NCBI GenBank assembly: GCA_028868995.1
Contig: JAGWTH010000014.1
Location: 1-64,000 of the forward strand
Length of the DNA stretch: 64,000 nucleotides
DNA from: Burkholderiales bacterium
Lineage (GTDB): Bacteria > Pseudomonadota > Gammaproteobacteria > Burkholderiales > Burkholderiaceae_C
Direction of reading: 5' to 3'
A program made the translations under genes and the position numbers. Every line of letters starts with the position of its first letter. Position 1 is the stretch's first letter. The notes below the pieces were generated by a model that ran no database searches, was not told the DNA's origin, and worked only from the letters and a program-made list of their open reading frames with translations. Shown here one piece after another: positions 1 through 20,017 of the stretch.

Positions 1-831
1 GCCGCCGCCGGCATCGCGACCGCCTACATCGCATCGCGCTTGGGCGCGCGCGAAGGCCTCCTGGTCTTCGGCCTGACGGTGATCTTGCTCGCCATCGCGC
101 TGACCCAGCTCTGGGTCAAAGACACACTGCCGTGGGCGAAGGCCGAGGCGGCCAAGCACGCGCCTGGGCTGGCCCAGGCTTTGCGTCCGCGCTATCCCGA
201 AGGCGTATCCGAGCGCCCCTCCACGCGGGAGGTGTTCGCACTCATGAGCTGGCGCGACAAGCGCCTCATGGCGCTGAGCCAAGCTGGCCTTGTCGAGAAG
301 TTCGTCGACGCGCTCGTCTGGGTCTTCTACCCCGCCTTCCTTTACCAGAAGGGCCTGAGCCTGCCCAACGTGGGCTGGGTGATCGGCTTCTACGGCTTCA
401 CCTGGGGGCTCTCCCAGCTCTTCACCGGCAGGCTGTCGGATCGCATCGGTCGCCACTTGCTCAACGTCTGGGGCATGTGGATTTGCGGCGCGGGCGTGGC
501 GGCCATGACTCTGGGCGAAAGCATGGCATGGTGGTCCGCCTCGGCGGCCGTCTCCGGCTTCGGCATGGCCCTGCTTTATCCGAATCTCTCGGCCGCGGTG
601 GCGGACATCTCGCATCCGTCCTGGCGCGGAACGGCTATTGGCATTTACCGATTCTGGCGCGACCTCGGCTACGGCTTCGGTGCCCTCGGCCTGGGGCTCG
701 CGGCGCGCTTCACCGGCCAGATGGAGTCCGCCTTCTGGTTTGTGGCCGCCAGCATGCTCGCGTCCGGCGCTCTTCTCTGGGCCGCGGGTGAAGAGACCCA
801 TCCGCGCCTGAACCCTGCGTCTCCTGCGTGA
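1..831 (+). CDS. MFS transporter, C-terminal part (gene starts before the window)
   Basis: The frame is open from base 1 and ends at TGA 829-831, giving about 276 residues of the carboxy half of a major facilitator superfamily permease. Several hydrophobic segments are visible. The family's cytoplasmic loop signature appears as GRLSDRIGRH near residue 143, after the GFTWGLSQLFT segment. A hydrophilic central loop (about residues 45-85) precedes the second six-helix bundle. The protein acts in the inner membrane. The substrate cannot be told from this half. An internal ATG at 40 is not a credible start because the frame continues upstream. Confidence 0.85.
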   Translation, partial: AAAGIATAYIASRLGAREGLLVFGLTVILLAIALTQLWVKDTLPWAKAEAAKHAPGLAQALRPRYPEGVSERPSTREVFALMSWRDKRLMALSQAGLVEKFVDALVWVFYPAFLYQKGLSLPNVGWVIGFYGFTWGLSQLFTGRLSDRIGRHLLNVWGMWICGAGVAAMTLGESMAWWSASAAVSGFGMALLYPNLSAAVADISHPSWRGTAIGIYRFWRDLGYGFGALGLGLAARFTGQMESAFWFVAASMLASGALLWAAGEETHPRLNPASPA

Positions 832-949
832 TCCGGCCCTAGTCGCCGACACATGGCGGAGACACCCTGCAACGCGTGCACTCCAGTGGGTTGGCAAGAC
901 AAGCAAGTTGCCGCACGATGCGACTGGGCGCTGCTGCAACGAGGATCAC

Positions 950-1363
950 ATGAGCAGGGTAACCGTCGAGTTTGAAATCGAAGAGGCTGACCTGGCCAAG
1001 GCCAAGGAGTTCGTCGCAACGAACGGTGGATCGCTGGATGGGCTGGTTTCAGCGTTCTTGGCGTGCGTCGGACACGGAGAACCCGCACATCAGATCACTG
1101 CAGATCAGTTAGGGCAAGTGTTGCTGTCCGTCAGTGCAGGACAGATCTCGGTGGCGGAAGCAGCTCGGGTCCTGAACTTCCCAGATGCAGGGTATGTGCT
1201 GCATCGTCTGGCGCAGGCGGGATTCACGATTCAAGGGTTGCCCGACCACACTGTTCACCAACAGTTGATGGCCGCTCGCACAACCCTCGATCAATGCTTG
1301 GTAGATCCAGCACTGAGGACAAAGAGCAGGGCCACGCACCGAGGCGGATCAGATCCCCTCTGA
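950..1363 (+). CDS. Orphan antitoxin-like small protein (ribbon-helix-helix-like N-terminus)
   Basis: A 137-residue protein. The start at ATG 950 is chosen because the first residues (MSRVTVEFEIEEADLAKAKEF) begin a strand-helix-helix pattern like RelB/DinJ antitoxins, and ACGAGGA lies just upstream. An in-frame start at 908 is possible but adds a Cys/His-rich stretch with no pattern. A second helix-turn-helix-like segment (QISVAEAARVLNF, about residue 65) resembles UPF0175-type antitoxins. No toxin gene is seen on either side. The coding sequence is clearly less GC-rich than the neighbouring M20 gene, which suggests acquired DNA. The family assignment is by eye only. Confidence 0.6.
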   Translation: MSRVTVEFEIEEADLAKAKEFVATNGGSLDGLVSAFLACVGHGEPAHQITADQLGQVLLSVSAGQISVAEAARVLNFPDAGYVLHRLAQAGFTIQGLPDHTVHQQLMAARTTLDQCLVDPALRTKSRATHRGGSDPL

Positions 1364-1456
1364 CCAGCTGACTGGCCGCAGGAAATTGCTCAGCAGCCTT
1401 AGTGAACCCAAGCCAAGAGACCCGCCCAGGACTTGCTGTCTGCGACGTAGCAATAG

Positions 1457-1488
1457 TTATGAGACGCAGACTTCCTCGCGTCTCATAA
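1457..1488. repeat. Perfect 11-bp inverted repeat
   Basis: The left arm TTATGAGACGC (1457-1467) and right arm GCGTCTCATAA (1478-1488) are exact reverse complements around a 10-base loop. The sequence is AT-richer than its surroundings. It could be a site for a DNA-binding protein or recombinase, or the edge of a decayed mobile element. No recombinase gene is nearby. Confidence 0.6.
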
Positions 1489-1571
1489 TTCGTGCACAAC
1501 TACTTGATTTCATTGGGCCGCAAATAGCAGTTCATGTTGGAAACTACAGACCGAAAGACCGACAGGCTCCT

Positions 1572-1610
1572 GCGGGGCACGGGCTGCGAGGCTCGTGCCC
1601 CGCTTGCTTT
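1572..1610 (+). terminator. Rho-independent terminator candidate
   Basis: GCGGGGCACG (1572-1581) pairs perfectly with CGTGCCCCGC (1594-1603), and the stem can extend inward by three more pairs. TTGCTTT follows. The hairpin lies about 200 bases after the small gene ending at 1363, so it may end that transcript and insulate the M20 gene. Confidence 0.45.
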
Positions 1611-1778
1611 GGGACGCAGCGCCTCCACGACCGAACGGTCGACTTCGCCACAGCCGCCCCAGCGACCTGCAAGCCTGCCGCACGCGGCGCTGACGACGCC
1701 CCCGGCCCCGGGCGTGGACATGCCCCCCAAGGCATGACCCGCCCGCGCCCGTGACCAGCGAGGACCGGCCGCTGGCCG

Positions 1779-1823
1779 TATGATCGTGCCGCCGGACCCG
1801 GTACGGGGTTTGTACCGCGGTCC
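1779..1823 (+). promoter_or_regulatory. Possible promoter -10 box and 5'-end hairpin before the M20 gene
   Basis: TATGAT at 1779-1784 would start transcription near 1791. Bases 1794-1823 form a near-perfect hairpin (GGACC-C-GGTAC pairing with GTACC-GC-GGTCC) that ends seven bases before the ATG at 1830. No good -35 box is visible. The hairpin could stabilise the transcript or hide the ribosome-binding region. Confidence 0.35.
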
Positions 1824-1829
1824 GCTGGC

Positions 1830-3026
1830 ATGACGGCGAACGGCCCCACCACCACCTACACCCGCATCGACCAGCTGCTGCCCTACGAGCAGGAGCTGGT
1901 GGCCATCCGGCGCCACCTGCACCAGCACCCCGAGCTGGCCTTCGCGGAGCACGGCACGTCCGACTTCGTGGCGGCCAGGCTGCAGGAGTGGGGCTACGAA
2001 GTCACCCGCGGCATCGCCGGCACCGGCCTGGTGGGCACCCTGCGCGTAGGGCAGGGCACGCGCCGCCTGGGCCTGCGCGCCGACATGGACGCGCTGCCCA
2101 TCCACGAAGCCACCGGCGCCGCCCACGCCAGCCTGGCGCCGGGCCGCATGCACGCCTGCGGCCACGACGGGCACATGACCATGCTGCTGGGCGCGGCCAA
2201 GTACCTGGCGCGCCACCGCCACTTCAGCGGCACGCTGCACCTGATCTTCCAGCCGGCGGAGGAGCGCGGCTTCGACAGCGGCGGCAAGGCGATGGTGGAG
2301 GCCGGCCTGTTCGAGCGCTTCCCGTGCGACGCGGTCTATGCCATGCACAACCACCCCGGCCTGCCGCAGGGCCGGTTCGCGATGCGCGCAGGCGCATTCA
2401 CCGCGGCCGGCGACCGGGTGTTCGTGAAGATCACCGGCGTGGGCGGCCATGCGGCGCGCCCGCACCTGGCGGTGGACCCGCTGGTGGCGGCGGCGGCCAT
2501 CGTCACCAGCCTGCAGACCGTGGTGGCGCGCAACGTGGACCCGGCCGAATCCGCCGTGGTGACCGTCGGCCGCCTGCGGGCAGGCGATGCGCTGAACGTG
2601 ATCCCGGCCGAGGCCGAGATCGGCATCAGCGTGCGCTCGTACTCGCAGGAGGTGCGGGCGCTGCTCAAGGAGCGGATCACGTCCATCATCACCGGCATCG
2701 CCCAGGCCCACGGCGTGCAGGCGCAGATCGACTACATCGAGGGCTACCCCGTCCTGGTCAACGCGCCCGATGCCGTGGCCCTGGCGGCCGAAGTGGCCCG
2801 GGACCTGGTGGGCCCGGACGCGGTGGACGTGAACTTCCCGCCCTCCATGGGCAGCGAGGACTTCGCCTACATGCTGCAGCGCTGCCCCGGCGCGCTGGTG
2901 CGCATCGGCAACGGGCCGGCCGATGGCGGGCGTGGGCTGCACAACGCGCGGTATGACTTCGATGACCGGAATTTGCCGTATGGGGCGGCGTTTTGGAGTC
3001 AGTTGGTGGAGAGGTTTTTGGGGTGA
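1830..3026 (+). CDS. M20 family amidohydrolase (hippurate hydrolase-like)
   Basis: A 398-residue cytoplasmic metallo-amidohydrolase of the M20D group, which removes acyl groups from N-acyl amino acids. Metal-site motifs are in place: RRHLHQHPELAF near residue 30, RADMDALP near 87, HACGHDGHMTMLLGAA near 107, FQPAEE near 141 and the late GSEDFAYML near 350. The internal GVGGHAARPH segment marks the dimerisation domain. Length is normal for the family. The gene stands alone between two AT-richer intergenic stretches. Its high GC and codon use match the backbone rather than the island that follows. The exact substrate is unknown. Confidence 0.93.
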   Translation: MTANGPTTTYTRIDQLLPYEQELVAIRRHLHQHPELAFAEHGTSDFVAARLQEWGYEVTRGIAGTGLVGTLRVGQGTRRLGLRADMDALPIHEATGAAHASLAPGRMHACGHDGHMTMLLGAAKYLARHRHFSGTLHLIFQPAEERGFDSGGKAMVEAGLFERFPCDAVYAMHNHPGLPQGRFAMRAGAFTAAGDRVFVKITGVGGHAARPHLAVDPLVAAAAIVTSLQTVVARNVDPAESAVVTVGRLRAGDALNVIPAEAEIGISVRSYSQEVRALLKERITSIITGIAQAHGVQAQIDYIEGYPVLVNAPDAVALAAEVARDLVGPDAVDVNFPPSMGSEDFAYMLQRCPGALVRIGNGPADGGRGLHNARYDFDDRNLPYGAAFWSQLVERFLG

Positions 3027-3607
3027 GGTGGGGTGGTCAGGGTCACCGAATTTCGTAACCGAAAGGGCTACGGAGATGGCCAAAACGACGTTCGGCCAGG
3101 AAACTCAATTTAGCCTTCGGGGCTCTTCCTCGTCCGAATCGTCTTCGTGACTACCCAATGCCAACGATCCCCAGCTCACACGCATCCGGGTCTTTAGGCG
3201 AAGGAGAATCACGCGTATAGTTCCTTCGGTCGCACTCCCGGCTGGAGAGATTCGGCGGTAACCGTGTTCGATGGGAAGGGGCGTTCCCGCGAGGCAACCA
3301 GGAATGAAGAGCGCACGACGAACGCCGGCCATTCTCGCCTTCGACGCCGGACATCTCACGTCGTGGTCTTCGGGTTTAGCCAGATGCTTGGTCCGGAGAG
3401 GTCTCTTTTCTCGGTTCTTGGCCCGACCTACACTCTCCCTTCGGCCGTAGGCGCCAGCCCGACTCCGGTCTCATGTAGACGTTTTTCGACTCGACACGCT
3501 AGATGCCGCGACAGGCATACGCTTTCCCAAGATCGGCGGAACAGTTCATCAGCAGATCTGTCGTAGACCCCTTAACGCTTGTCCAAGTTGGTTGCCCTTG
3601 AGCAAAG
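3027..3607. other. Non-coding, AT-richer left flank of the defence island
   Basis: About 580 bases with no convincing gene on either strand. Base composition drops sharply relative to the M20 gene. No tRNA, integrase or clear attachment repeat was recognised. The stretch probably contains the left boundary of the acquired island and the promoter of the methyltransferase operon. No clear -35/-10 pair stands out. Confidence 0.5.
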
Positions 3608-3613
3608 TTGGTA

Positions 3614-5287
3614 ATGAGAGAAATCGGATGTCCGCCTTATGCGTCCCGCACGCCCCCTGAGACGGCGCGAGAAAAGCCCCCCGTGTCCTGCCCGGACCTG
3701 ACAGCTTCCCATCGAAAGTCGCAACTCGTCCTTAACGCTGAGGATGCGTTAATTCGCAGCAAACTCGCCCGCATCCAGAGCGGCGGACCAATCCGCTATA
3801 TGGATATGTTCGCAGGCTGTGGCGGGATTTCGCTCGGATTCCTCACAGCAGGCTTTACGCCAGTCGCATCGGTGGAAAACGATCGCTGGGCCGCGCTTTC
3901 CCATGGAGCGAACTTCGGCACACGCTCTGCCGGCGGCGATCGGCCAGGGCACCACGTTCCACGCGATGCGGTCACCGAGACTGCCGAGACGGTCTTCGCC
4001 GACCTGGAGCTCAATGGCGCCACTGACGACCAAATCGACGTGTTGGTCGGTGGTCCGCCGTGCCAAGCTTTCGCCCGCGTAGGCCGTGCCAAGCTGCGTG
4101 AGCAGGCACGCCGCCGGGAGGAAGTCAGTGCCGACCAGGCGTTCCTCGTCGACGGCCGCGTGAGCCTCTGGCAACGGTACGTCGCGTTCATCCGCGCCAC
4201 CAAGCCGGTGGCGCTACTCATGGAAAACGTTCCGGACATACTCAACCACGGCGGCAACAATGTCGCAGAGCTGGTCTCAAAGAGCCTCGCCGAGGAAGGC
4301 TATGAAGTCGCCTATACGCTGCTCAACGCTGCATGGTATGGGGTGCCGCAGATGCGAGAGCGGATGATTCTGGTTGGCTTCCATCGTGCCACTGGCATCG
4401 AGCCGCGCTTCCCAACACCTACTCACCACATAGATCTGCCTTCCGGCTATATCAGCTCCAAAAACGCCGCGCGGCGCGTGCTGAAAATGGAGGGGTCCGA
4501 GCATCACCGTTGGATCGCTGATCCGGCACCATCGGCCGTCCCCGCGACTTCGGCGTCCGAGGCGCTCGCCGATCTCCCGCCGCTCTATGCGCAGGAAATG
4601 CTCCGTGCGGGTCAGATACGCCGAGGCGCAAAGGACCCGTCTGAGCCCGTCGACTACACCAGAACCAAGCCGACCACTCCTTACTCCCGGCTGATGCGGG
4701 AGTGGTTTGGTTTCGCCACCAAAGGGACGACAGGCCACGTTTTTCGTTGCTTGCCACGCGACTACAAAATCTTCGCGGAGGTGCAGCCTGGGTGGGAGTA
4801 CCCGCAGATTCATGCTCACGTAGAGCGGAAGATCGCTGCGTGGTTGAGCCAGCGGAAGCGCCGTGGCCTACCGACTGACGGCCGCAACTCGGACGTAAGC
4901 GAGTTCATCGCTTCTTGGCGCATCCCCTATGACCCGACCAAGTTCCCTAACAAGTGGTGGAAGATTCGTGCCGACGCGCCTGTGCGAACCTTGATGGCTC
5001 ATCTCGGCAAAGATTCGTACTCACATATTCACTTTGACAGCGAGCAGGCACGCACGATTACGGTACGTGAGGCCGCCCGGCTCCAATCTTTCCCCGATGG
5101 CTTCGTGTTCAAGGGCTCGATGAATCCCGCTTTCAAGCAGATCGGTAACGCTGTGCCGCCGCTGTTTGCTTATGCCATCGCGCGCGGAATACGGGAGAGC
5201 TTGGGAGCGCCCGAAACGCCGGACATGCGCGTCGCGCTGCTTGGCCTGTCCCGGTCACAGATCACGACAACTGATGGGTCATTGTGA
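3614..5287 (+). CDS. DNA (cytosine-5-)-methyltransferase of the defence operon
   Basis: About 557 residues. All main C5-methyltransferase motifs can be read: motif I DMFAGCGGISLGF near residue 65, motif IV GGPPCQAF with the catalytic Cys near 150, motif VI MENVPD near 205, motif VIII QMRERMILVGF near 250, then motif IX REAARLQSFPDGF and motif X QIGNAVPP near the end. The long stretch between motifs VIII and IX is the target-recognition region. It would mark host DNA against the nucleases downstream. ATG 3614 is preferred; an in-frame TTG lies at 3608. The stop overlaps the next start as GTGA. GC is visibly lower than the flanking genome. The recognition sequence is unknown. Confidence 0.95.
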   Translation: MREIGCPPYASRTPPETAREKPPVSCPDLTASHRKSQLVLNAEDALIRSKLARIQSGGPIRYMDMFAGCGGISLGFLTAGFTPVASVENDRWAALSHGANFGTRSAGGDRPGHHVPRDAVTETAETVFADLELNGATDDQIDVLVGGPPCQAFARVGRAKLREQARRREEVSADQAFLVDGRVSLWQRYVAFIRATKPVALLMENVPDILNHGGNNVAELVSKSLAEEGYEVAYTLLNAAWYGVPQMRERMILVGFHRATGIEPRFPTPTHHIDLPSGYISSKNAARRVLKMEGSEHHRWIADPAPSAVPATSASEALADLPPLYAQEMLRAGQIRRGAKDPSEPVDYTRTKPTTPYSRLMREWFGFATKGTTGHVFRCLPRDYKIFAEVQPGWEYPQIHAHVERKIAAWLSQRKRRGLPTDGRNSDVSEFIASWRIPYDPTKFPNKWWKIRADAPVRTLMAHLGKDSYSHIHFDSEQARTITVREAARLQSFPDGFVFKGSMNPAFKQIGNAVPPLFAYAIARGIRESLGAPETPDMRVALLGLSRSQITTTDGSL

Positions 5288-7317
5288 AATTCACAATCCT
5301 ACGGCTCCTTACCCATTCCGAGCTTGGCATGTTTCACGAATATCGCCGACAGGGGAAGGAACGCGCGAAGCAGCGTGCCATCAACTTTGACTGGGACGTT
5401 GTCGACAGGGTATTTCCGGCTGCGAAAGATTCTGATCGAATCGCCATTGACTGCAGGCGTCTCGAGGACGAAAAGACCGTCGTGGAAGTTGCGTCATGGC
5501 TCAAGCGGCAGCACAAGAACTGGCGGTTTGAGGGTGACTGCCCAACCACGCCCTACTACCGATATGTCGACCCGGGCGTCCTGTTCGCGATGGTCGTAGA
5601 TTCCGGGACAACACCCGCGAAGGCGTCGTGGGTGGTCGTACCAACCGATCATCGTGCTTACGCGGCCATTGTGAACCACGGCGAAAGCGCTCGCTTGGCC
5701 CAAGCCGCGATGGTGGCTTTGTACGGCGACGAAGGAGCCTACTGCCAATCCGTGCTCGCGGAGAACTTCGGGCAACTATTCGAGAAGGCCGAAACTATGC
5801 ACGTGACGCCCAAATCTGCCACTCAGACTGCAGATAACGACGAGGTTCCACCCGATCCGCTCGGTCTGTTCAAAATCCTAGCGCGCGCCGGCCACAGCCT
5901 GCCCAGTGCAGTTGCAGACCTCGTTGACAACAGCCTCTCTCACGAGGCCAGAGAGATCGATATCACATTCCCCAACCCGAACGAGGGCGGGCGATGGATG
6001 TGTATTCGTGATGACGGCGTGGGGATGACGCCCGAGGGACTACGCGACGCCATGAAGATCGGGCATCAGCGCGAGTACGACAACGCGGACCTTGGCAAGT
6101 TCGGATACGGACTCAAGGGCGCCGCTTGGTCGCAGGCAGATCGCCTCACGGTGGTGGCGAAGGCCACGGGTCAAAATCAGAGCGTTCTCACCTGGGACAA
6201 GGATCACCTCGCGAAGACGCGGCGTTGGGAGTTGCTGAATAGCGCCGTCGCGCCTCAATACTCCAGTGCGGTCAAGCTGGGTGAATCAGGCACTGCGGTC
6301 CTTCTGACTCAGATGCGACCATCGATGGAGCCGATCAAGGGCAAGGGAGCCTCGCCATACGCCTTGGAGCTGGCCGCGATTAGGGACCACCTGGAGCTGG
6401 TCTTCCACCGGTACTTGGAGGGCAAAGTTCCTGGACGGGAGAAGGTAGTCATCCGACTTAACGGAGATCCGCTGCGCCCGAACAATCCAGTTGGACACCC
6501 GCTTGCTAAAGTCTTCGACGAACGTCGAATTGAACTCCCCGGGATTGAAGGGGAGAAGGCAGCCATCCTGTCTGTTCGGGCGGTCGTCACACCGAACGAG
6601 GCCGAGTTGGAGGAGTACCTCAAACCGCTGTCGCCCGAGGATCGACGTGTTGAAAAGGATCGACTGACGCTGAATGGGCGGGCGAACGACGCGCAAGGCT
6701 TTTACTTCTACCGCCTTGACCGCCTGATCAAATGGGGCGGTTGGGAGGACTTGTTTGCAAAAGACGAACATACAAAGCTTCTTCGCGTCGCTGTCGATTT
6801 CGACCGGCTCGCCGACGAGCCGCTGCAGGTTGACATCAGCAAGCAGCTCATCCGCTTGCCCGTCGCCGTCTCCGAGCGACTGAAGGAGATTCTTAAGGCA
6901 CCGCGAGCGGAGGCTCGCAGCCGGTACGACAAGAAGACGCGACGCGCAAAAACACCGCCGGCCAGCGGTGGCAGCGGTGCCGCGCCCAGCACTACCGGCC
7001 CTGGATCCCCCGCACCGAGCTTCAACGAACCGAACTTGATCGGAGGCTTCGGCGCAAACCCCTCCATAGGATTTACCCCCACCCCAGCTCTCAGGAAGGA
7101 CCGGCCAGCGCTTCGCTTGGTCAGCACCGGCCCGGTGGCGTGGGAGCGGAAGATTGGGTTCGGAGGTGAGCACGTTGAGATCACACCGCGAGTGCCCCAG
7201 TTGGTCGCCCTCGTTCAGGCCATCGATAAGGACAGCGAGGCCAAGTTAGCACTTTCCGAGTTTCTCCGAGTGCTTGAGACCGCTGGCGTGCCTAAGCTAT
7301 TGACGGGCGAGTCTTGA
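5284..7317 (+). CDS. GHKL ATPase (MORC/MutL-like) of the defence operon
   Basis: A 677-residue protein starting with GTG 5284, inside the stop of the methyltransferase gene, so translation is probably coupled. Residues 1-175 form an N-terminal region I do not recognise. The ATPase domain follows: N-box VADLVDNSLSHEA near 210-222, G1 box DDGVGM at 243-248, G2 box GKFGYGLKGA at 271-280. A Pro/Gly/Ser-rich linker (about 545-600) leads to a short C-terminal segment. GHKL ATPases of this kind were linked to methyltransferase, Z1 and nuclease genes in comparative work on MORC origins (Iyer, Abhiman and Aravind 2008). A role as an ATP-driven clamp or sensor on DNA is inference. Confidence 0.88.
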   Translation: MKFTILRLLTHSELGMFHEYRRQGKERAKQRAINFDWDVVDRVFPAAKDSDRIAIDCRRLEDEKTVVEVASWLKRQHKNWRFEGDCPTTPYYRYVDPGVLFAMVVDSGTTPAKASWVVVPTDHRAYAAIVNHGESARLAQAAMVALYGDEGAYCQSVLAENFGQLFEKAETMHVTPKSATQTADNDEVPPDPLGLFKILARAGHSLPSAVADLVDNSLSHEAREIDITFPNPNEGGRWMCIRDDGVGMTPEGLRDAMKIGHQREYDNADLGKFGYGLKGAAWSQADRLTVVAKATGQNQSVLTWDKDHLAKTRRWELLNSAVAPQYSSAVKLGESGTAVLLTQMRPSMEPIKGKGASPYALELAAIRDHLELVFHRYLEGKVPGREKVVIRLNGDPLRPNNPVGHPLAKVFDERRIELPGIEGEKAAILSVRAVVTPNEAELEEYLKPLSPEDRRVEKDRLTLNGRANDAQGFYFYRLDRLIKWGGWEDLFAKDEHTKLLRVAVDFDRLADEPLQVDISKQLIRLPVAVSERLKEILKAPRAEARSRYDKKTRRAKTPPASGGSGAAPSTTGPGSPAPSFNEPNLIGGFGANPSIGFTPTPALRKDRPALRLVSTGPVAWERKIGFGGEHVEITPRVPQLVALVQAIDKDSEAKLALSEFLRVLETAGVPKLLTGES

Positions 7318-9635
7318 TGCAAGTTAGGGGCCCGAGTGCCTTTGCCTTGAGGCCCAGGCTCACGCTCTGGACCGACGGGACGACGTGGTCGAACTGGTCC
7401 CGACACGAGGCGTACCTACAGGGCCAGCCTAAGTGGAACTCCCACCAGATAGCGTCGGTTGCAGAGGAATCGCTTCGAATCATCTCGAAGACCACTCCGA
7501 TCTCGCGCTCCGATTTTCAGTGCCGTGGGCTGGTGGTCGGGTATGTCCAATCCGGCAAGACCGCAAATTTCACGGCCGTCGCCGCGCGTGCAGCTGACGT
7601 TGGCTACCGGCTCATCGTAGTGCTCTCGGGAATCCACGACTCCCTTCGCAATCAGACGCAGCGACGGCTGAATCGTGAGTTGGTAGAGGTCGGCACCGAC
7701 TGGATCACACTTACTGACGAGAGCACTGACTTCCACGAGCCGCCCGTGGCCGATGGCTTCGCCTCCGCTGGGACAGTGCTAATCGTCGCAAAAAAGATCA
7801 CACCGATCTTGAAGCGACTCAACCAGTGGCTCGAAAAGCTTGAGGGTCGGCTCGCAGAAGTCCCTATGCTGCTGATCGACGACGAGGCCGACCAAGCCTC
7901 GATCAACACGCGCGGAAATCGACGAGATCCGAGCGTTGACGAGGAGACTGCATCGGACGAGGATACCGCGCCGTCACTGACCAACGCACTCATCCGAGAC
8001 ATCCTGAACAAGTGCCCCCGGGCGACCTACATTGCTTACACGGCAACACCGTTCGCGAACATTCTTATTGATCCCGACGCAAGCGACAGCGTCGTTGGCA
8101 CGGACCTCTTTCCTAAGGATTTTGTCATCCAGCTTCCGCGTCCGGACGGCTACACGGGAACCGAGGAGTTGTTCGGCGTGAGCGCCCGGGGACGCGATGT
8201 CCTTCGGCCGGTTGATGATGCAGATGTGAGAGCGTTGAAGCCCAGGCGACGTAAGAAGGGAGAGGCCGTCGTGGCTCATGGGCCGCTCGATCTACCCCAA
8301 TCGCTTTCGGACGCCTTGCTGACGTTCGCAATGGTCGGCGCCATTAGGCTGCTGCGAGGGCAGAAAGACAAGCCACATACGATGCTGGTGCATGTGTCCC
8401 AGCTCCAACGCGATCAGATGCGTATCGGCGCTGCCATCGAGGAGCAAATCCGTGCGTGGTTCCACCACGAAAAGGCTGAGCCGGGCGTGCTGCGGCACAT
8501 GATGATTGCCACGCTGGCCAGTCTGGGTGCAGTCGATCTACCCGTGGCGGAGGAAGTCGTCGTCGCAGAGGCCATCACCAATCTCGCACGACTTGAGGTC
8601 ACTGTTCTCAATAGCACCACAGGTGCCGAGCTGGACTACGACCATAAACCTGGGCGGCAGCTCGTCGCCGTCGGCGGCAATCGACTGTCCCGCGGGCTCA
8701 CGCTTGAAGGGCTCACCATCGCCTACTTCTTGCGAACCACCACTCTGGCCGACTCGTTGCTTCAAATGGCTCGTTGGTACGGCTTTCGCTCTGGCTATGA
8801 AGATCTGATTCGAATTTGGACAACCGAAGGTATCGCCGAGTGGTTTGTAGAGCTGGCTTTGGTTGAGGAGTCCCTGCGGGATTCGATCACGGCGCTGAAC
8901 AGGGCCGGTCGGCGGCCCGACGAGATGGCAATTCGAATGCGCGCCCATTCCGAGCTGCTTCTTACGAGCAAGAACAAAAGCAAGATGCTCGCCGAGGACG
9001 CCCGCTCGTGGTCGGGAGAGAATCCTCAAACAATCCTGTTCCCGCTGCACAACGGCGATGCATTGGCGCGGAACCTTGAACTAGCGTCTGATCTGCTGCG
9101 CCTGCATCCTCCAACCCAAGACGCGCATGGCGGGGCTATAGCACACGACGTCCCACCTGAAGACGTAGCGCTGTTCCTGCGACGCTACGAGGGGCACCCA
9201 AACAGCATCGCGTTCCAGGGTGCAGAGATAAGCGACTGGATTATGGAGCGCGTGGCGGTGGGCGAGCTCATTTCCTGGACTGTTTTCGTTGCCAACCCGC
9301 AGCGCGACCGGCAAGTGCTCTTGGGAGGCCGCCCATTTGGGCTTGTCCACCGCTCGCAGCAAGCCTCCGAGTCGATCGGCATCCTCATCGACCCGCGCCA
9401 TGAGGGTGTGGACCTGCACGGGGGTCCCGAGAACTACCGGGCGGGCTCGGGGTTCAGCGCGAAGGCGATGCGCGAGGATCGCCCTCCCACGCAAGGCCTG
9501 CTGTTGCTTTATCCGCTAGATCCGGAGCCGCTTCGGGCGCCAACGCAGGCAGTGCTTGGCATCGCATTGTCGCTACCTCGAACAAGTGATGAAGGGCGCC
9601 CGCTCGTTGGAAACCGGGCACTAATTCATGAGTGA
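7317..9635 (+). CDS. Z1-domain helicase-like ATPase of the defence operon
   Basis: A 772-residue superfamily-2-like ATPase. Walker A reads GYVQSGKT near residue 76, Walker B LLIDDEAD near 190 and motif III AYTATPFAN near 243. Late motifs GGNRLSRGLTLEGL (about 455) and QMARWYGFR (about 485) define the Z1 family. ATG 7317 is chosen because it shares its A with the preceding TGA (TGATG), a typical coupled start; an in-frame TTG lies at 7314. Z1 proteins occur with C5 methyltransferases and GHKL ATPases in restriction-like operons. The likely role is translocation on or remodelling of DNA for the nuclease. No nuclease motif was seen within this protein. Confidence 0.9.
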   Translation: MQVRGPSAFALRPRLTLWTDGTTWSNWSRHEAYLQGQPKWNSHQIASVAEESLRIISKTTPISRSDFQCRGLVVGYVQSGKTANFTAVAARAADVGYRLIVVLSGIHDSLRNQTQRRLNRELVEVGTDWITLTDESTDFHEPPVADGFASAGTVLIVAKKITPILKRLNQWLEKLEGRLAEVPMLLIDDEADQASINTRGNRRDPSVDEETASDEDTAPSLTNALIRDILNKCPRATYIAYTATPFANILIDPDASDSVVGTDLFPKDFVIQLPRPDGYTGTEELFGVSARGRDVLRPVDDADVRALKPRRRKKGEAVVAHGPLDLPQSLSDALLTFAMVGAIRLLRGQKDKPHTMLVHVSQLQRDQMRIGAAIEEQIRAWFHHEKAEPGVLRHMMIATLASLGAVDLPVAEEVVVAEAITNLARLEVTVLNSTTGAELDYDHKPGRQLVAVGGNRLSRGLTLEGLTIAYFLRTTTLADSLLQMARWYGFRSGYEDLIRIWTTEGIAEWFVELALVEESLRDSITALNRAGRRPDEMAIRMRAHSELLLTSKNKSKMLAEDARSWSGENPQTILFPLHNGDALARNLELASDLLRLHPPTQDAHGGAIAHDVPPEDVALFLRRYEGHPNSIAFQGAEISDWIMERVAVGELISWTVFVANPQRDRQVLLGGRPFGLVHRSQQASESIGILIDPRHEGVDLHGGPENYRAGSGFSAKAMREDRPPTQGLLLLYPLDPEPLRAPTQAVLGIALSLPRTSDEGRPLVGNRALIHE

Positions 9636-10581
9636 CGTCACGTCCGATCGTTGGGCAGATCTCCGCGAGACGCGTCCCCACCATGAGGCTGTTTGTGAAT
9701 CGGTGGCGGACGATTTCGAGGAGGCCCTCCTCGGAATCACGTCAGATGGGCGGCTGCATCTGTATATAGCAGTCGATGCTGCCCCCTCGAGCTTGCCGCC
9801 GGACCTCCAGAGTATCCAGGTTCGTGTGGTCGAAGGAGACCGTACTTGGCTAGACGTCTCGGCACGGAGCCACCACGAGGAGCTGCTTACGCTGATCGCG
9901 AACAAAGTGGTGTATGCAATCCGTGTCGAGGGGCGCGATCCGGCAATAGCGGTCGAAAAAATCATCGACGAAATGCGTTCTGCGCTGCGGCCAATTGTTC
10001 CTGATTTGAGCCAAGCAGAGCAGATCGGATTGTTCGGTGAACTGTGGGTTCTTTCAAACGTGCTGCTCTCTACTGTCGGACCGCGAATCTGCCATCTCTG
10101 GAGCGGTCCCGACAGTGAGCGCCATGACTTCGTGGGGCGGGGTGTCCACATAGAGGTGAAAACGACCACTCGCTCCGAGCCGAAGCACGAGATCTCACGC
10201 GTTGATCAGCTCCGGGCTCCTGGTGGCAAGCGCCTGCTCATGGTGAGCATCCTTCTGGAGCGCTCCTTGGGTGGTGAAGAGACGCTGGCTGACCGCGTTG
10301 ATGAAATTCGTCAGAAGCTTGGCAACGACGGTCATGCCATTGACGTGTTTGAGTCACAGCTGGCAAAGCTCGGATGGCACGAAGGTCTACGGCAAACCGG
10401 ATCTCTGCTGCGTTTCACATTCCGCGACGTCCACGTCTTCGAGGTTGTTGGTTCGTTCCCTAGACTGCCCGATGACTATGTTCCGCCGCCAGGCGTCTCG
10501 GGCATAAGGTACACCATCGACGTAGGGAGTCTGCCTTCTCTTAACGTCGCCGACGTCCAGAAGATCTTGGAATTGATTTGA
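9628..10581 (+). CDS. PD-(D/E)XK motif nuclease (DUF4420-like) of the defence operon
   Basis: A 317-residue protein. The start ATG 9628 lies inside the end of the Z1 gene (8-base overlap). The pattern GLFGELWVL near residue 135, HDF near 166-168 and IEVKTTTR at 175-182 fits the PD-(D/E)XK nuclease fold, with Asp167, Glu176 and Lys178 as the probable metal-binding and catalytic residues. This is the family arrangement of DUF4420 proteins, which sit at the end of Z1/GHKL/methyltransferase operons. It is the likely effector that cuts unmodified invading DNA; that role is inferred. It ends 136 bases from the convergent vsr gene. Confidence 0.85.
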   Translation: MSDVTSDRWADLRETRPHHEAVCESVADDFEEALLGITSDGRLHLYIAVDAAPSSLPPDLQSIQVRVVEGDRTWLDVSARSHHEELLTLIANKVVYAIRVEGRDPAIAVEKIIDEMRSALRPIVPDLSQAEQIGLFGELWVLSNVLLSTVGPRICHLWSGPDSERHDFVGRGVHIEVKTTTRSEPKHEISRVDQLRAPGGKRLLMVSILLERSLGGEETLADRVDEIRQKLGNDGHAIDVFESQLAKLGWHEGLRQTGSLLRFTFRDVHVFEVVGSFPRLPDDYVPPPGVSGIRYTIDVGSLPSLNVADVQKILELI

Positions 10582-10717
10582 TCCGACGAGACCATGCTGC
10601 GCGTCGAGGTTGGGCAGCACAGATCGGCGGTACGCACCGATACTTGGACACGTCTGCCAAGCCATGGCGGGTCGCAACTATCCGAATTGGGGACGACGCA
10701 CTGCAGGACGCGAATTG

Positions 10718-11185
10718 TCAGCCCACATCTCCAGAGATTTCCAGCGCCGGCTCCCTCGAATCGCTTCGAATCCAGGCCGCGAGACGATCCATTGCCGCGT
10801 CGAAGCTCGCCTGCGCTCGTATGCCCTTGAGCGCACATTCCCAGACTATCGCAACTCTCCAACCCAACGAAATTAGTGTCAGAGCCACCAGCTCATCGCG
10901 CTCCACATTGCCTGCTAGCTTGCGTTGCCAGAACTGCGAGTTGCTTTCTGGAAGCTTGGAGAGTGAGCAGCCATGCAAATGCCAGAAGCATCCGTGCACA
11001 AAGACGGCAACTTTCCAGCGCGTCAGCACAACGTCCGGGCGCCCTGGGAGGCGAACAGGAGCTCGAGAGAATCTGAAGCCCCTGAGATGGAGGGCCCGAC
11101 GGACCTGCATCTCCGGCTTAGTATCTCGACCACGTATGCCGGCCATCATCTGGCTCCGGACTTTCGGATCCACAATATCGACCAT
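10718..11185 (-). CDS. vsr: Very short patch repair endonuclease (Vsr)
   Basis: A 155-residue T:G-mismatch endonuclease. The catalytic residues known from E. coli Vsr fall at the same numbers: Asp51 in LPGRPD, and His64 and His69 in VFVHGCFWH. The N-terminal RSQMMAGIRGRDTKPE, the FWQRKLAGN segment and the GWRVAIVWECAL segment also match. Vsr repairs T:G mismatches made when 5-methylcytosine deaminates, so it is the natural partner of the C5 methyltransferase at 3614. It is convergent with the four-gene operon and must have its own promoter in 11186-11364. Composition is lower in GC, like the rest of the island. Confidence 0.95.
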   Translation of the reverse strand: MVDIVDPKVRSQMMAGIRGRDTKPEMQVRRALHLRGFRFSRAPVRLPGRPDVVLTRWKVAVFVHGCFWHLHGCSLSKLPESNSQFWQRKLAGNVERDELVALTLISLGWRVAIVWECALKGIRAQASFDAAMDRLAAWIRSDSREPALEISGDVG

Positions 11186-11364
11186 ACGTCCGTGGTTTGA
11201 AAAGTCGGAGCTTATCAGCGCAGGTTATGTCTGATGAGCCACCAAGGGACAAGGTCCCCAAGTGCTGTACGAATTGGCGGCCGGGTCATAAGGCGGAAAG
11301 TACTCCAAAGTGCCCCACCCCTGCAGCCCGATCACATACTCCCATCGCCCCGGAACACTGTTCA

Positions 11365-12468
11365 ATGCCCCCAACCCGCCTCACCATCCTCGGCGGCGGC
11401 CTCGCCGGCCTCTACGCGGCGTACTTGCTCGAACAGCACGGCATCCACGACTACCTCCTGATCGAAGCCCGCCCCCGCTGGGGCGGCCGCATCGACGCGG
11501 CTTCCAGCGGCGCGGATGCCTTCGATCTCGGGCCGACGTGGTTCTGGCCCGCCTTGCAGCCGCAGCTGGACCACCTGGTGCGCGACCTGGGCCTCGCCTC
11601 CTTCGCGCAGCACGAGGCGGGCGACATGGTGGTGGAGCGCTCGCCCAATGCGCCGGCCATGCGCACGCGGGGCTATCTCTCCTCGCCGCGTTCGATGCGG
11701 CTGGCGGGCGGCATGGGTGCGCTGGTGGCCGCCCTGCAGCGGCGCCTGGACCCGGCGCGCCTGCTCGCCGGCCACACGGTGCGGCGCCTGGCCTGCGGTG
11801 GCGCGCAGGTCGACCTGGAGGTCGTGGCCGCCGACGGGCAAACCACTTCCTTGCGCGCCGGGCAGGTGCTGCTGGCGCTGCCCCCGCGCCTGGCGGCCAC
11901 CACGCTGCAGTTCGCGCCCGCGCTGCCGGAGGCGCTGGCGCGGGCGTGGCGGGGCACGGCGACGTGGATGGCGCCGCACGCCAAGTACCTCGCCGTCTAC
12001 GACACGCCCTTCTGGCGCGAGCAGGGCCTGTCCGGCGAGGCGCGCAGCGCCTGCGGGCCCATGGCGGAGATCCACGATGCGTCCGCCGCTTCGGGCGGCG
12101 CCGCCTTGTTCGGCTTTCTCGGGCTGCCCGCGCAGGTGCGCAGCAGCGTTCCTGAGGATGTGCTGCGGGCGCATTGCCGCGCGCAGCTCGCGCGGCTGTT
12201 CGGCCCGCGGGCGGCGCTGCCGCAGGCGGAGTTCCTCAAGGACTGGGCGAGCGACCCTTTCACGGCCACCGCCGCGGACCTGCAGGGCGGCGGCGAGCAC
12301 GCGGATGCGCCGCCGGCCGGCGTGCCCTCGGGGCCCTGGCGCGGGCGCATCGTCGGCATCGCCAGCGAGTGGTCGCCGCAGTTCCCGGGCTACCTGGCCG
12401 GCGCCGTGGAGGCCGCCGACCTGGGCGTGCGGGCGGCTTTATTGAGCGAGGGGCATGCCGCCCGATAG
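11365..12468 (+). CDS. Flavin monoamine oxidase family protein
   Basis: A 367-residue FAD enzyme. The dinucleotide-binding motif is TILGGGLAGLYAAYLLEQHG (residues 6-25), followed by the family's ARPRWGGRI motif near residue 35. The C-terminal FAD-binding part is seen as GIASEWSPQFPGYLAGAVEAA near residue 330. It is shorter than typical monoamine oxidases (about 450 residues) but has both ends of the fold. ATG 11365 is chosen because the nucleotide-binding strand begins five residues later; the open frame upstream has island-like composition. Substrate unknown. This is the first backbone gene after the defence island. Confidence 0.88.
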   Translation: MPPTRLTILGGGLAGLYAAYLLEQHGIHDYLLIEARPRWGGRIDAASSGADAFDLGPTWFWPALQPQLDHLVRDLGLASFAQHEAGDMVVERSPNAPAMRTRGYLSSPRSMRLAGGMGALVAALQRRLDPARLLAGHTVRRLACGGAQVDLEVVAADGQTTSLRAGQVLLALPPRLAATTLQFAPALPEALARAWRGTATWMAPHAKYLAVYDTPFWREQGLSGEARSACGPMAEIHDASAASGGAALFGFLGLPAQVRSSVPEDVLRAHCRAQLARLFGPRAALPQAEFLKDWASDPFTATAADLQGGGEHADAPPAGVPSGPWRGRIVGIASEWSPQFPGYLAGAVEAADLGVRAALLSEGHAAR

Positions 12469-12495
12469 GTGCTGGCGCGCGGCAGGTCCGAGCGG

Positions 12496-12508
12496 GATAA
12501 TGCCCGCA
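12496..12508 (+). promoter_or_regulatory. -10 box giving a leaderless mntA transcript
   Basis: GATAAT at 12496-12501 ends six bases before ATG 12508, so transcription would begin at or next to the start codon. A weak -35 (CTGGCG, 12472-12477) lies 18 bases upstream. No Shine-Dalgarno sequence is present. Confidence 0.45.
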
Positions 12509-12807
12509 TGCAGCTGCTTCCAGTCCAGCGGGAGAAGATCGCCGACATTTGCCGGCGGTACCACATCCGTCGCCTGAGCCTCTTCGGCTCGGCGGCCGTT
12601 GGGGCTGAGCGGCCCGACAGCGACGTGGACCTCCTGGTCGAATTCGTTCCCGGTCAGGCGCCGAGCGGGTTCGCGCTGGTGGACATGCAGGAGGAGCTGG
12701 CGCGGGTGTTCGATGGTCGTCGCATCGACCTGGCTTTCCCCTCCATCCTGCGCAACCCCTGGCGCCGCAGGGCGATCGAGCCGCAGCTGCGGCCCATCTA
12801 CCAATAA
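12508..12807 (+). CDS. mntA: MntA-type nucleotidyltransferase antitoxin
   Basis: A 99-residue minimal nucleotidyltransferase. It carries the family signature GS-X10-DXD: Gly27-Ser28, then Asp39 and Asp41 in SDVDLLVEF. In studied MntA/HepT pairs the antitoxin transfers AMP to a tyrosine next to the active site of the HEPN ribonuclease and silences it. The partner gene starts two bases after the stop here. ATG 12508 is chosen because the -10 box GATAAT sits six bases before it and the conserved helix follows directly; a frame open from 12469 adds only an Arg-rich stretch. Confidence 0.88.
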   Translation: MQLLPVQREKIADICRRYHIRRLSLFGSAAVGAERPDSDVDLLVEFVPGQAPSGFALVDMQEELARVFDGRRIDLAFPSILRNPWRRRAIEPQLRPIYQ

Positions 12808-12809
12808 GG

Positions 12810-13148
12810 ATGGACCGCACCGCCGCCTACGTCGCGGACATGCTCGACGCCGCGCGTGAGCTCGTGGCATTGGCCGACGGTGTCGAAGTGGGCGCGTTTC
12901 TGGCCGACCGCCTGCGGTGCCTGGCCTGCGAAAAGCTCTTCATCAACCTGGGCGAGGCAGCCAAGCGCATCGACACGGCGCGAGCGGCATCGATTCCGGG
13001 CGTACCCTGGACGCGCGTCATCGGCCTGAGGAACATCCTCGCCCATGGGTACGAAGAGGTCGAGCACGAGGTTCTCTACCGGACGATCCAGCAAGACTTG
13101 CCGGCGCTCGTGAGCTCGTTGCAGGAGTGGCTGGCGTCGCAGGGCTGA
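12810..13148 (+). CDS. hepT: HepT-like HEPN ribonuclease toxin (DUF86)
   Basis: A 112-residue all-helical HEPN protein. The active-site motif RX4HXY is intact as RNILAHGY: Arg74, His79 and Tyr81, the tyrosine being the position that MntA modifies in characterised pairs. HepT toxins cleave RNA and stop growth, often in phage defence. The gene lies two bases after mntA in the same orientation, which is the canonical order. The pair sits about 1.3 kb to the right of the defence island. Its GC is like the backbone, so it need not have arrived with the island. Confidence 0.9.
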   Translation: MDRTAAYVADMLDAARELVALADGVEVGAFLADRLRCLACEKLFINLGEAAKRIDTARAASIPGVPWTRVIGLRNILAHGYEEVEHEVLYRTIQQDLPALVSSLQEWLASQG

Positions 13149-13187
13149 GCCGTCGGCCACGCCGCCGTGGCGTGGCCAGCGGTGCTC

Positions 13188-13976
13188 TCATGTTTCGGCG
13201 TGGCAGCACCCGCCCGCTGCCCGCGCGGCCGGGGCCGCCGGCTGCGGCTGGTAGCGGTCGTGGTGCCGCACCCACTCCATCTTGTGCGGCACGTCGCGTT
13301 CGTCGCGGCCCTTGGGCGTCAGGTCCATCAGCTGGTACGCGCCCATCATCACCTCCACGCCGCGGCCGAAGGTGGAGTAGGTGTGGAACACGGCGCCCGC
13401 GTCGTCCCGGGCGAACACGCTGACGCCCGGGGCCTCCTCCGCCGGGAAGGCGCTGGGGCCGTAGTTGTAGTCCACCGTGCCGGTGGCCAGCTCCTCGGGC
13501 GTGAAGCTCACGTGGAAGTCGCGGTTGAAGGTGCTGCCGTGCGACGAGACCCAGCGGAACTGCCAGCCCATGCGGCGGCGGAAGCGCTCGATCTGCTCCA
13601 GCGGCGCGCGCGACACGGCCACGAAGGCGATGTCGCGCTGCGCCAGGTGGATGGTCATGCCGTCGCTGTGGTCGGCCATGTACGAGCAGCTGGGGCAGCC
13701 CTGCTCCCAGTCGGGGCCGAACATGAAGTGCTGCACCACCAGCTGGCGGCGCCCGTCGAACAGCTGCGCCAGCGTGCGCCGGCCCTCGGGCGTGTCGAAC
13801 ACGTAGTCGCTGGCCAGCCGCCGCCAGGGCAGGGCGCGGCGCTCGCGGGCGACCTGGTCGCGCAGGCGCGTCAGCTCCTTCTCGCGGGCCAGCAGCTGCC
13901 GGCGCGCATCGAGCCAGCGGGTGTCGGAAACGACGGGGTGGTCGGCGGTGCCGGCCTGCGAAGTGAACAGGGTCAT
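13188..13976 (-). CDS. DUF899 family thioredoxin-like protein
   Basis: A 262-residue protein. The core reads QLVVQHFMFGPDWEQGCPSC near residues 79-98, a family hallmark with a CPSC pair in the position of a thioredoxin-like active site, followed by SYMADHSDGM. The family is widespread and its biochemical role is unsettled. The C-terminal tail is Ala/Pro-rich and ends in a CCH motif. The ATG at 13976 is chosen because MTLFTSQAGT begins the usual family N-terminus; upstream sequence in frame is low-complexity. The gene lies 29 bases after the beta-propeller gene on the same strand and is probably cotranscribed with it. Confidence 0.88.
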   Translation of the reverse strand: MTLFTSQAGTADHPVVSDTRWLDARRQLLAREKELTRLRDQVARERRALPWRRLASDYVFDTPEGRRTLAQLFDGRRQLVVQHFMFGPDWEQGCPSCSYMADHSDGMTIHLAQRDIAFVAVSRAPLEQIERFRRRMGWQFRWVSSHGSTFNRDFHVSFTPEELATGTVDYNYGPSAFPAEEAPGVSVFARDDAGAVFHTYSTFGRGVEVMMGAYQLMDLTPKGRDERDVPHKMEWVRHHDRYQPQPAAPAARAAGGCCHAET

Positions 13977-14005
13977 GGTGGGCTCCTTGGCTCGACGAGC
14001 CGGGG

Positions 14006-14668
14006 TCAGTTGCGGGGGCGCCGCACGGCGCGCACCTTGCCGGTGCCGCCGCCGCCGCAGTAGAAAAGGTCCGCGCCGGCGGACTCCAGTCCGCTCACGT
14101 TCACGCCGGGCGGCAGGGCCAGCTGCTCCAGCACCTCGCCGCTTTGCGGGTGCACGCGGCGCAGCTCGCTCTCGTCGCCCTCCCAGGTGGCGTGCCACAG
14201 CTCACCGTCGGCCCAGGTGACGCCGGTGACGAAGCGGTTCGACTCGATGGTGCGGCGGATCGCGCCGGTGTCGGGGTCGACCTGGTGGATCTTGCGGCCG
14301 CGGTAGTCGCCCACCCACAGGCTGCCCTCGGCCCAGGTCAGGCCCGAGTCGCCGCCGCCGGCGGGCGCGGGGATGCTGGCCAGCACCTGCCCGGTGGCGG
14401 GGTCGACCTTGTCGATGCGCGCATCGGCGATCTGGTACAGGTGCTTGCCGTCGAAGGCCGTGCCGGCATCGGCCGCGCGCTCGATCGCCCGCGCCACCTC
14501 GCCGCTGCCGGGGTCGATCGCCACCAGCCGCGCGCCGGTGGCGGCCCACACGTGGCGGCCGTCGTAGCTCACGCCGCCGACCTTGGTCACGCCCGGGAAG
14601 GGGCCGTATTCGCGCACCACCTCGGCCTGGCGGGCCGCGGCCTGGGGCTTGTCGCTGGGGTTGCTCAT
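14006..14668 (-). CDS. Beta-propeller protein (PQQ/NHL-like repeats)
   Basis: A 220-residue protein made of repeated blade-like units, each with a pattern such as LVAIDPGSGEV, IDKVDPATGQVL, IHQVDPDTGAI and LRRVHPQSGEVL at roughly 45-residue spacing. About four to five blades are seen, which is short for a closed propeller. No signal peptide is visible, so it is probably cytoplasmic. Its enzymatic role is unknown; resemblance to glutaminyl cyclotransferase-type or Vgb-type propellers is only structural. It precedes the DUF899 gene by 29 bases and is likely in one operon with it. Confidence 0.75.
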   Translation of the reverse strand: MSNPSDKPQAAARQAEVVREYGPFPGVTKVGGVSYDGRHVWAATGARLVAIDPGSGEVARAIERAADAGTAFDGKHLYQIADARIDKVDPATGQVLASIPAPAGGGDSGLTWAEGSLWVGDYRGRKIHQVDPDTGAIRRTIESNRFVTGVTWADGELWHATWEGDESELRRVHPQSGEVLEQLALPPGVNVSGLESAGADLFYCGGGGTGKVRAVRRPRN

Positions 14669-14713
14669 CGCGGGGTTCCTTTCGGCGCCGGCTTTCGGCG
14701 CGGTGAAGGCACT

Positions 14714-15934
14714 CTACGCACCCGGCGGCGAACCCGGGAGTAACAAGATTGTCGTGAAAGCGGCCAGCGGCGGCGCCAGCCAGCGGCGCGAGCGCGACTG
14801 GCCGATGGCCCGCACCTGGCCGCCCGCGTGCAGCTGCGTCAGCGCGCGCTGCACCGTGCGCTGGCTGGAGCCCACGGCCAGTGCCAGGGCCGACGTCGAC
14901 CAGGCGGCGCCGTCGGAGAGCAGGGCCACCAGCGCAGCCTGCTCGCCGGCGATGGGCGGGTCCAGCACCACCACTTCGGCGCTGCCTTGCGGCCGAAGCG
15001 CGAAGCCGTCTTGAGTGGCCTCGATGCCCGCGTGCCCCTTCACCAGCGCGCGCAGGCGGCCGATCTCCACGCGCAGCCGGGCGCGGTGCGTCTCGTCGGG
15101 GCGGCGCGTGCGGAAGGCGGTGGCGATCAGCGCGTCGCGCGGCGCGGCGCCGGGCCAGGCCTCGGCCAGCGCCCGCGCCAAGGCGTACAGGATGGGCCGG
15201 CTCGCCAGCGGCTGCCATGCGCCCGCGTGGCCCAGGCCGCGGCGGCAGGCGTCGAGCACCAGCGCGTCCGAGGCGAGCAGGGCCTCGACCTCGTCCAGGC
15301 GCAGCGTCTGCTCGCCGGCGGCCGTGCGCCGCCGCGCGGCGGGGCGGTCGAGCGATGCGCGGGCCTCGGCCACTTCGGCCATCAGCGCCGGCACGCCCGC
15401 GCGGTACGCGGCCTGGTGCGCGCGCGCCAGCGCCGCCCGCGCGGGAGCGAGGCGCAGCGAGCGCAGCGCCAGCTCGGCGCCGGCCAGGTCGGTCACCGCA
15501 GCCAGCGCCGCGGGCAGGCCGCGCGGGTCGACCTCCGCCAGCATCGCCGCGGCCTCGTCCAGGCGCCCGAGCAGCAGGTACTGGCGGGCCGCCACCAGGC
15601 GCGCATGCATCGCATTGGCGCGGTCGCCGTGTTGCTCCAGCGTGGCGACGGCCGCGACCAGCGCGTGCGGCAGGCCGGCCAGTTCGCGCAGCGCCAGCGC
15701 CACCTCCGCCTCGGCCACGCGGCACCGCGCACGGGCCAGCTCCTCGCCCGATCCGAAGGCGCGCTCGGCGCGCCGCAGCAGATCGCGCGCCACCGCCAGC
15801 TCGCCCAGCTGCGCCATCGCGATGCCGCGCAGCGCCAGCGCGGGCGGGTCCTCGCGCAGCGCCACCCGCTTGAGCGCGCCCAGCGCATCGCCCGCGGCAA
15901 GCGCGCGGGCCGAGGCGGCGATGAGGGAGTCCAT
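14714..15934 (-). CDS. Transcriptional regulator with TPR-like and two winged-helix segments
   Basis: A 406-residue protein. Residues 1-200 are Ala/Leu-rich helical repeats with the look of tetratricopeptide units (for example ALRGIAMAQLGELAVARDLLRRAE). A winged-helix-like segment of the transcriptional-activator type follows (ALIATAFRTRRPDETHRARLRVEIGRLR, about 275-305). Near the end lies a second HTH-like segment (TSALALAVGSSQRTVQRALTQL, about 348-370). It is divergent from the alcohol dehydrogenase gene, with an 81-base spacer holding a direct repeat, so it may control that gene. No DNA-contact prediction was possible. Confidence 0.7.
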   Translation of the reverse strand: MDSLIAASARALAAGDALGALKRVALREDPPALALRGIAMAQLGELAVARDLLRRAERAFGSGEELARARCRVAEAEVALALRELAGLPHALVAAVATLEQHGDRANAMHARLVAARQYLLLGRLDEAAAMLAEVDPRGLPAALAAVTDLAGAELALRSLRLAPARAALARAHQAAYRAGVPALMAEVAEARASLDRPAARRRTAAGEQTLRLDEVEALLASDALVLDACRRGLGHAGAWQPLASRPILYALARALAEAWPGAAPRDALIATAFRTRRPDETHRARLRVEIGRLRALVKGHAGIEATQDGFALRPQGSAEVVVLDPPIAGEQAALVALLSDGAAWSTSALALAVGSSQRTVQRALTQLHAGGQVRAIGQSRSRRWLAPPLAAFTTILLLPGSPPGA

Positions 15935-15958
15935 GGCGGGAGACTACCCGGAGTCGGC

Positions 15959-15986
15959 CCATGGAGGTCTCCGTCTTTCCATGGAG
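15959..15986. promoter_or_regulatory. Candidate operator: direct repeats CCATGGAG
   Basis: CCATGGAG occurs at 15959-15966 and again at 15979-15986, exactly 20 bases apart (two helical turns), in the divergent spacer between the TPR-type regulator and the alcohol dehydrogenase. A third CCATGG overlaps the regulator's own start codon (15931-15936). The spacing suggests two protein subunits on the same DNA face. Confidence 0.4.
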
Positions 15987-16015
15987 AATCGATGCGTCGT
16001 GGATGAAGGATTGCC

Positions 16016-17029
16016 ATGAAGACCAGCTACCGCGCCATGCAGGTGTCCGCGCCGGGCACGCTCGAACTCGTGGAGCGCCCCGTGCCGCAGCCGGGCGCGG
16101 GCGAGGTGCTGATCGAGGTGGAGGCCTGCGGCGTCTGCGGCGCCGACGCGGGCGACATCGAGCGCGCGCGCCCCGGCGCGAACCGAGTGCCGGGCCACGA
16201 GGTGGTGGGCCGCATCGCCGCGATGGGCCCGGGCGTGCCGGCGATGTGGAAGCTGGGCCAGCGCGTCGGCGTGGGGCGGCTGGGCGGGCACTGCAACGCC
16301 TGCGTGCAGTGCCGCCGCGGGCAGTTCCAGCTGTGCCTGGACCAGCCCTTCGTGGGCTCCAGCTGCGACGGCGGCTACGCGGAAATGATGCTGGCCCGGG
16401 CCACGGCGCTGGTCTCCATCCCCGACGAACTCGGCTCCGAGGAAGCGGCGCCGCTGCTGTGCGCCGGCATCGCGACCTTCAACGCGCTGCGCAAGTGCGG
16501 GGCGCAGGCCGGCGACCGGGTCGCGGTGCTGGGCATCGGCGGCCTGGGCCACATGGCGCTGCAATATGCGCGCAGGATGGGTTTCGAGGTCGTCGCCATC
16601 GGCCGCGGCGCCGACATCGCCGACGATGCGCTGGCGCTGGGCGCGCACGTCTACATCGACACGCGCCAGGAGGACGCCACCGCCCGCCTGCAGACCCTGG
16701 GCGGCGCGCAGGCCATCCTGTCGACCATCGGCGACGGCGCCGCGGTGTCGGCGCTGCTGCCCGCGCTGGCGCCGCAAGGCCGCCTCGTCCTGCTCGGCGC
16801 CGGCAAGGACCCGCTGGCCGTGACCACCGGCGCCATGGTGTCCGGTGAACGCGGCATCCTGGGCTCCATCACCGGTTCGCCCTACGAATGCGAGCGGGCG
16901 CTGGACTTCAGCGTGCTGGTCGGCGCCCGCCCGCGCATCGAGACCCTGCCGCTGGAACAGGCGCAGGCGGCCTATGCCAGGTTGAAGTCGGGGGCGGTGA
17001 AGTTCAGGATGGTGCTGACGATGGGGTGA
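16016..17029 (+). CDS. Zinc-dependent alcohol dehydrogenase
   Basis: A 337-residue medium-chain dehydrogenase. Catalytic zinc ligands are Cys38 (ACGVCGAD), His61-Glu62 (VPGHEVVG) and Cys149 (LLCAGIATF). The structural zinc site is Cys93, Cys96, Cys99 and Cys107. The nucleotide-binding motif is GIGGLG near residue 178. The set matches the class that oxidises primary alcohols or reduces aldehydes with NAD(P). GAAGGA lies seven bases before the ATG. The gene is divergent from the TPR/winged-helix regulator and is probably its target. Substrate is not determined. Confidence 0.93.
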   Translation: MKTSYRAMQVSAPGTLELVERPVPQPGAGEVLIEVEACGVCGADAGDIERARPGANRVPGHEVVGRIAAMGPGVPAMWKLGQRVGVGRLGGHCNACVQCRRGQFQLCLDQPFVGSSCDGGYAEMMLARATALVSIPDELGSEEAAPLLCAGIATFNALRKCGAQAGDRVAVLGIGGLGHMALQYARRMGFEVVAIGRGADIADDALALGAHVYIDTRQEDATARLQTLGGAQAILSTIGDGAAVSALLPALAPQGRLVLLGAGKDPLAVTTGAMVSGERGILGSITGSPYECERALDFSVLVGARPRIETLPLEQAQAAYARLKSGAVKFRMVLTMG

Positions 17030-17073
17030 GGGGGCGAGGCGCCGGCCTGCCGATCCCGCCGGCCGACGCATGC

Positions 17074-17086
17074 TAGATTTTCGCGA
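17074..17086 (+). promoter_or_regulatory. -10 box giving a leaderless TMEM175 transcript
   Basis: TAGATT (17074-17079) ends six bases before ATG 17086, with no Shine-Dalgarno sequence between them. The spacing is the same as upstream of mntA. Confidence 0.4.
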
Positions 17087-17706: not shown

Positions 17707-17719
17707 CCCTGCCCCGGGC

Positions 17720-18205: not shown

Positions 18206-18213
18206 GGCAGCTC

Positions 18214-18666: not shown

Positions 18667-18835
18667 CGTCCTGCCTGCCTTTCTCGAGCGCTCGGGGAAC
18701 CCCTGCGCCCGGCCATGGATGGGCGTCGCATCTCGCGACCTCGGCCCACTATGGCATCGCGACGGGCCCGCTTCTTGATGGAGGTCAAGCGCGGCCCGGA
18801 CGCGCGACCCGGGCGCGGATGAGCCAGCCCAGGCC

Positions 18836-19165: not shown

Positions 19166-19180
19166 GTCCCTCGCCTCGCT

Positions 19181-19936: not shown

Positions 19937-20017
19937 GGGTGGCCCGATTGTCCACCACGCCGCACCGCGACTTTGCTAGTCTTCGCCACGAGGTCCCGGC
20001 CAGGTGAGGAGGTCCCC

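Follow-up and report, generated by a model that had tools for sequence, protein, structure and literature searches.

A restriction-like island with a predicted B3-like DNA-recognition domain on its MORC ATPase in a Burkholderiales bacterium

What does a low-GC, five-gene island near the start of a Burkholderiales contig do, and which of its parts would choose the DNA? The window analyzed here is the whole stretch of 64,000 nucleotides from a Burkholderiales bacterium (assembly GCA_028868995.1, contig JAGWTH010000014.1, positions 1 to 64,000). An original prediction, made from the sequence of the window, described an island of methyltransferase, GHKL ATPase, Z1 ATPase, PD-(D/E)XK nuclease and Vsr genes, and Pfam matches and motifs confirmed all five. 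The island is most likely a system that would mark its own DNA and cut unmarked foreign DNA using ATP-driven machinery. It belongs to an already known predicted operon type; the part not pointed out before, in the portions of the literature covered, is a predicted sequence-reading domain.

Results

The features of the island are as follows.

3532..11185, no strand assigned: transferred block, from DNA-level homology to the same-genus copy L157 and low GC
3608..5287, + strand: C5-cytosine DNA methyltransferase (PF00145, 1.1e-55; 559 amino acids as read, start uncertain)
5284..7317, + strand: B3-MORC protein (677 amino acids; PF13589, 1.1e-26)
5284..5793, + strand: B3-like domain predicted to recognize DNA (residues 1-170 of the MORC protein)
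5896..6294, + strand: GHKL ATPase domain (MORC residues 205-337; PF13589)
7317..9635, + strand: Z1/superfamily II (SFII) helicase gene (PF10593, 2.2e-59; motifs; nine homologues in the alignment)
9628..10581, + strand: DUF4420 PD-(D/E)XK nuclease (active site: E138, D167, E176-V-K178 and Q194)
10718..11185, - strand: Vsr very-short-patch mismatch endonuclease, convergent (PF03852, 3.7e-26; 1cw0, E 7.3e-34)

The B3-MORC protein consists of a B3-like domain, the GHKL ATPase, an S5 domain with the MORC signature, a low-complexity linker and a C-terminal domain. Residues 1-170 are predicted to adopt a B3-type fold, the kind that BfiI and EcoRII use for recognition. The recognition domains of BfiI, EcoRII, LlaJI.R1 and UbaLAI share this fold at a sequence identity of 6-9%. 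Those four domains are fused to a nuclease or an AAA domain, whereas that of the window sits on a GHKL ATPase. No related Pfam family (EcoRII-N etc.) was found at E-values up to 10 in the B3-like stretches of the window and of the related loci L014, L030 and L032. The first 30 residues of the B3 domain were the most conserved part of the protein, and the domain accompanies a single group of methyltransferases across unrelated engines. Judged by its modelled fold, the B3-like domain fused to the MORC-like ATPase probably reads DNA sequence. A search of the open-access literature found no published description of a B3-MORC fusion.

The ATPase resembles human MORC2 (E 2.8e-5) more than MutL (0.78). 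The MORC S5 signature GhXhhpXXRhl is present as GFYFYRLDRLI at residue 472, and was found in 52 of 56 locus MORCs compared to 6 of 1068 other open reading frames of at least 300 amino acids. The predicted GHKL N, G1 and G2 boxes held up, with N216, D243, G245, G247, G271, G274 and G276 invariant in 54 of 56 aligned MORCs and the remaining two gapped. Residue 212 is Asp in the window and in 53 of the 56 aligned MORCs (56 loci), at a position where Glu is the usual GHKL catalytic residue. The change may result in slow or switched ATP hydrolysis.

The methyltransferase carries intact motifs I, IV, VI, VIII, IX and X, as expected of a C5-methyltransferase, and groups in one clade with other B3-linked methyltransferases. 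At other loci the methyltransferase has been swapped, with identities down to 25-26%, and a common interface is therefore unlikely. The Z1 ATPase was verified by its Pfam match and by the motif DSLLQMARWYG, which differs from DThhQXuRhFG by two conservative changes, and the D...EVK nuclease core was located in the DUF4420 protein.

The assignment to the restriction-like operon type of Iyer, Abhiman and Aravind (2008) was also borne out. Besides the MORC signature we found an SFII helicase whose C-terminal domain holds this near match to DThhQXuRhFG, a restriction-endonuclease-fold protein with E-D-ExK, and a cytosine methylase and a Vsr-superfamily gene in the neighborhood. The original interpretation stood in this respect, but probably not in counting Vsr as a full member. 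For MORC operon type 3, the parts of the account covered describe no B3-type recognition domain such as the one predicted in the window; VP1/RAV domains are named there in connection with MORC operons of the SWI2/SNF2 type (PMC2292703). CglI and NgoAVII are described, as far as the sources were covered, as ATP-dependent restriction-modification systems of three genes, without MORC and with a PLD-type nuclease fused to B3 (PMC4267653, PMC5737866). The window lacks that fusion: its B3-like domain is joined to the MORC ATPase, and its nuclease, DUF4420, is of the PD-(D/E)XK type. The Corynebacterium diphtheriae BH8 island has a separate EcoRII-like gene and a methylase fused to an Xre helix-turn-helix, and MORC goes unmentioned in the part of the paper covered (PMC5379612).

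The gene set is mobile. Positions 3532-10600 and 10724-11185 match L157 at 80.9 and 79.3% identity, respectively (blastn, window 1-20000), and outside the block L157 had no further match in these first 20 kb. The block has the lower GC relative to its flanks that had been predicted.

Alternative explanations

Vsr could be the nuclease that acts as effector in the restriction complex; the original title of a five-gene island implied this. Vsr-superfamily proteins are listed as predicted endonucleases in the part of Iyer et al. (2008; PMC2292703) covered. In the window the gene is intact and under purifying selection (ratio of nonsynonymous to synonymous substitutions, dN/dS, 0.14). The predicted Asp51, His64 and His69 were retained in the alignment to 1cw0, together with E25 and the C/H ligands; these correspond to the catalytic residues and zinc ligands of E. 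coli Vsr. Vsr is present in 66 of 89 such loci and in 10 of 14 B3-MORC loci. However, the genomes of L022-L025, four systems 81-83% identical, and of L026 contained no Vsr; these are drafts, and the contigs of L023 and L022 stop 83 and 1541 bases past DUF4420, respectively. Placement also varies: downstream convergent in the window and L157, upstream co-directional in L158, upstream divergent in L027 and downstream co-directional in L014, L029 and L030. We consider an effector role very unlikely; going by gene content and order, Vsr is probably an optional companion of the methyltransferase.

An MZA-type defence acting independently of the linked methyltransferase, e.g., by an abortive response, with methyltransferase and Vsr merely frequent neighbors, is unlikely, if less so than a Vsr effector. 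MzaB, MzaC and MzaD are the closest named models, and MZA is called validated in the part of the source covered (PMC9523054, which cites the MZA paper by Gao et al., 2020). The scores stay far below the equivalog cut-offs (152/850, 354.5/1500 and 66.5/420 bits, respectively; NCBIfam NF041931-NF041934), and the window MORC has an additional N-terminal domain. No MzaA (sigma-like) or MzaE (AIPR) gene was found with purpose-built hidden Markov models on window 1-20000 or with Pfam on nine proteins. Least probable of all is a decayed or inactive remnant. The Asp in the GHKL box could point that way, but it is shared by nearly all aligned homologues, and all five island genes have open frames with low dN/dS. 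A self-marking system that would cut unmarked DNA is preferred as the likely explanation.

Related loci and neighbors

Viral contigs L160-L162 and L164 carry the same kind of methyltransferase (in L164 not in view), then a B3-bearing frame that is interrupted and gives way to a methylase region of the N6/N4 type; L160 has a minor-tail/tape-measure gene and a recombinase nearby. These may represent a phage-borne methyltransferase that confers protection from restriction of this type; alternatively, they may be scars of recombination. L170, L171, L173 and L176 have methyltransferases 48-49% identical to that of the window, next to Vsr, an AAA-like protein and a McrC-like DUF2357 protein, in which a PD-(D/E)XK domain was seen for L170; L173 also has a B3 protein. 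By profile comparison the N-terminus of the AAA-like protein is not B3. At the R. etli locus L172, B3 occurs as a separate protein alongside a MORC, and the fused form in the window predicts that the two would touch directly. In L175 (Burkholderia glumae plasmid, 4051-9497), one protein has two HATPase regions; it is grouped with a 397-amino-acid protein, Vsr and a methyltransferase that shares 43% identity with that of the window, perhaps as another engine variant. Just past the island, a nucleotidyltransferase (NTP_transf_2, 1.2e-9) adjoins a HepT-like protein (1.7e-18), probably a MntA-HepT toxin-antitoxin pair (window 12469-13148, + strand).

Significance

MORC ATPases matter in eukaryotic gene silencing. 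Bacterial MORCs are found in restriction-like operons, for which the literature covered, seen in part, lacked an explanation of the recognition step. A predicted recognition domain on the ATPase gives a handle on DNA choice, and the predicted operon type gains an assignable site. The evidence for Vsr as a passenger repair enzyme tidies the definition of the system. The fusion of a predicted recognition domain to a MORC ATPase also points to recombination between specificity modules and cutting engines.
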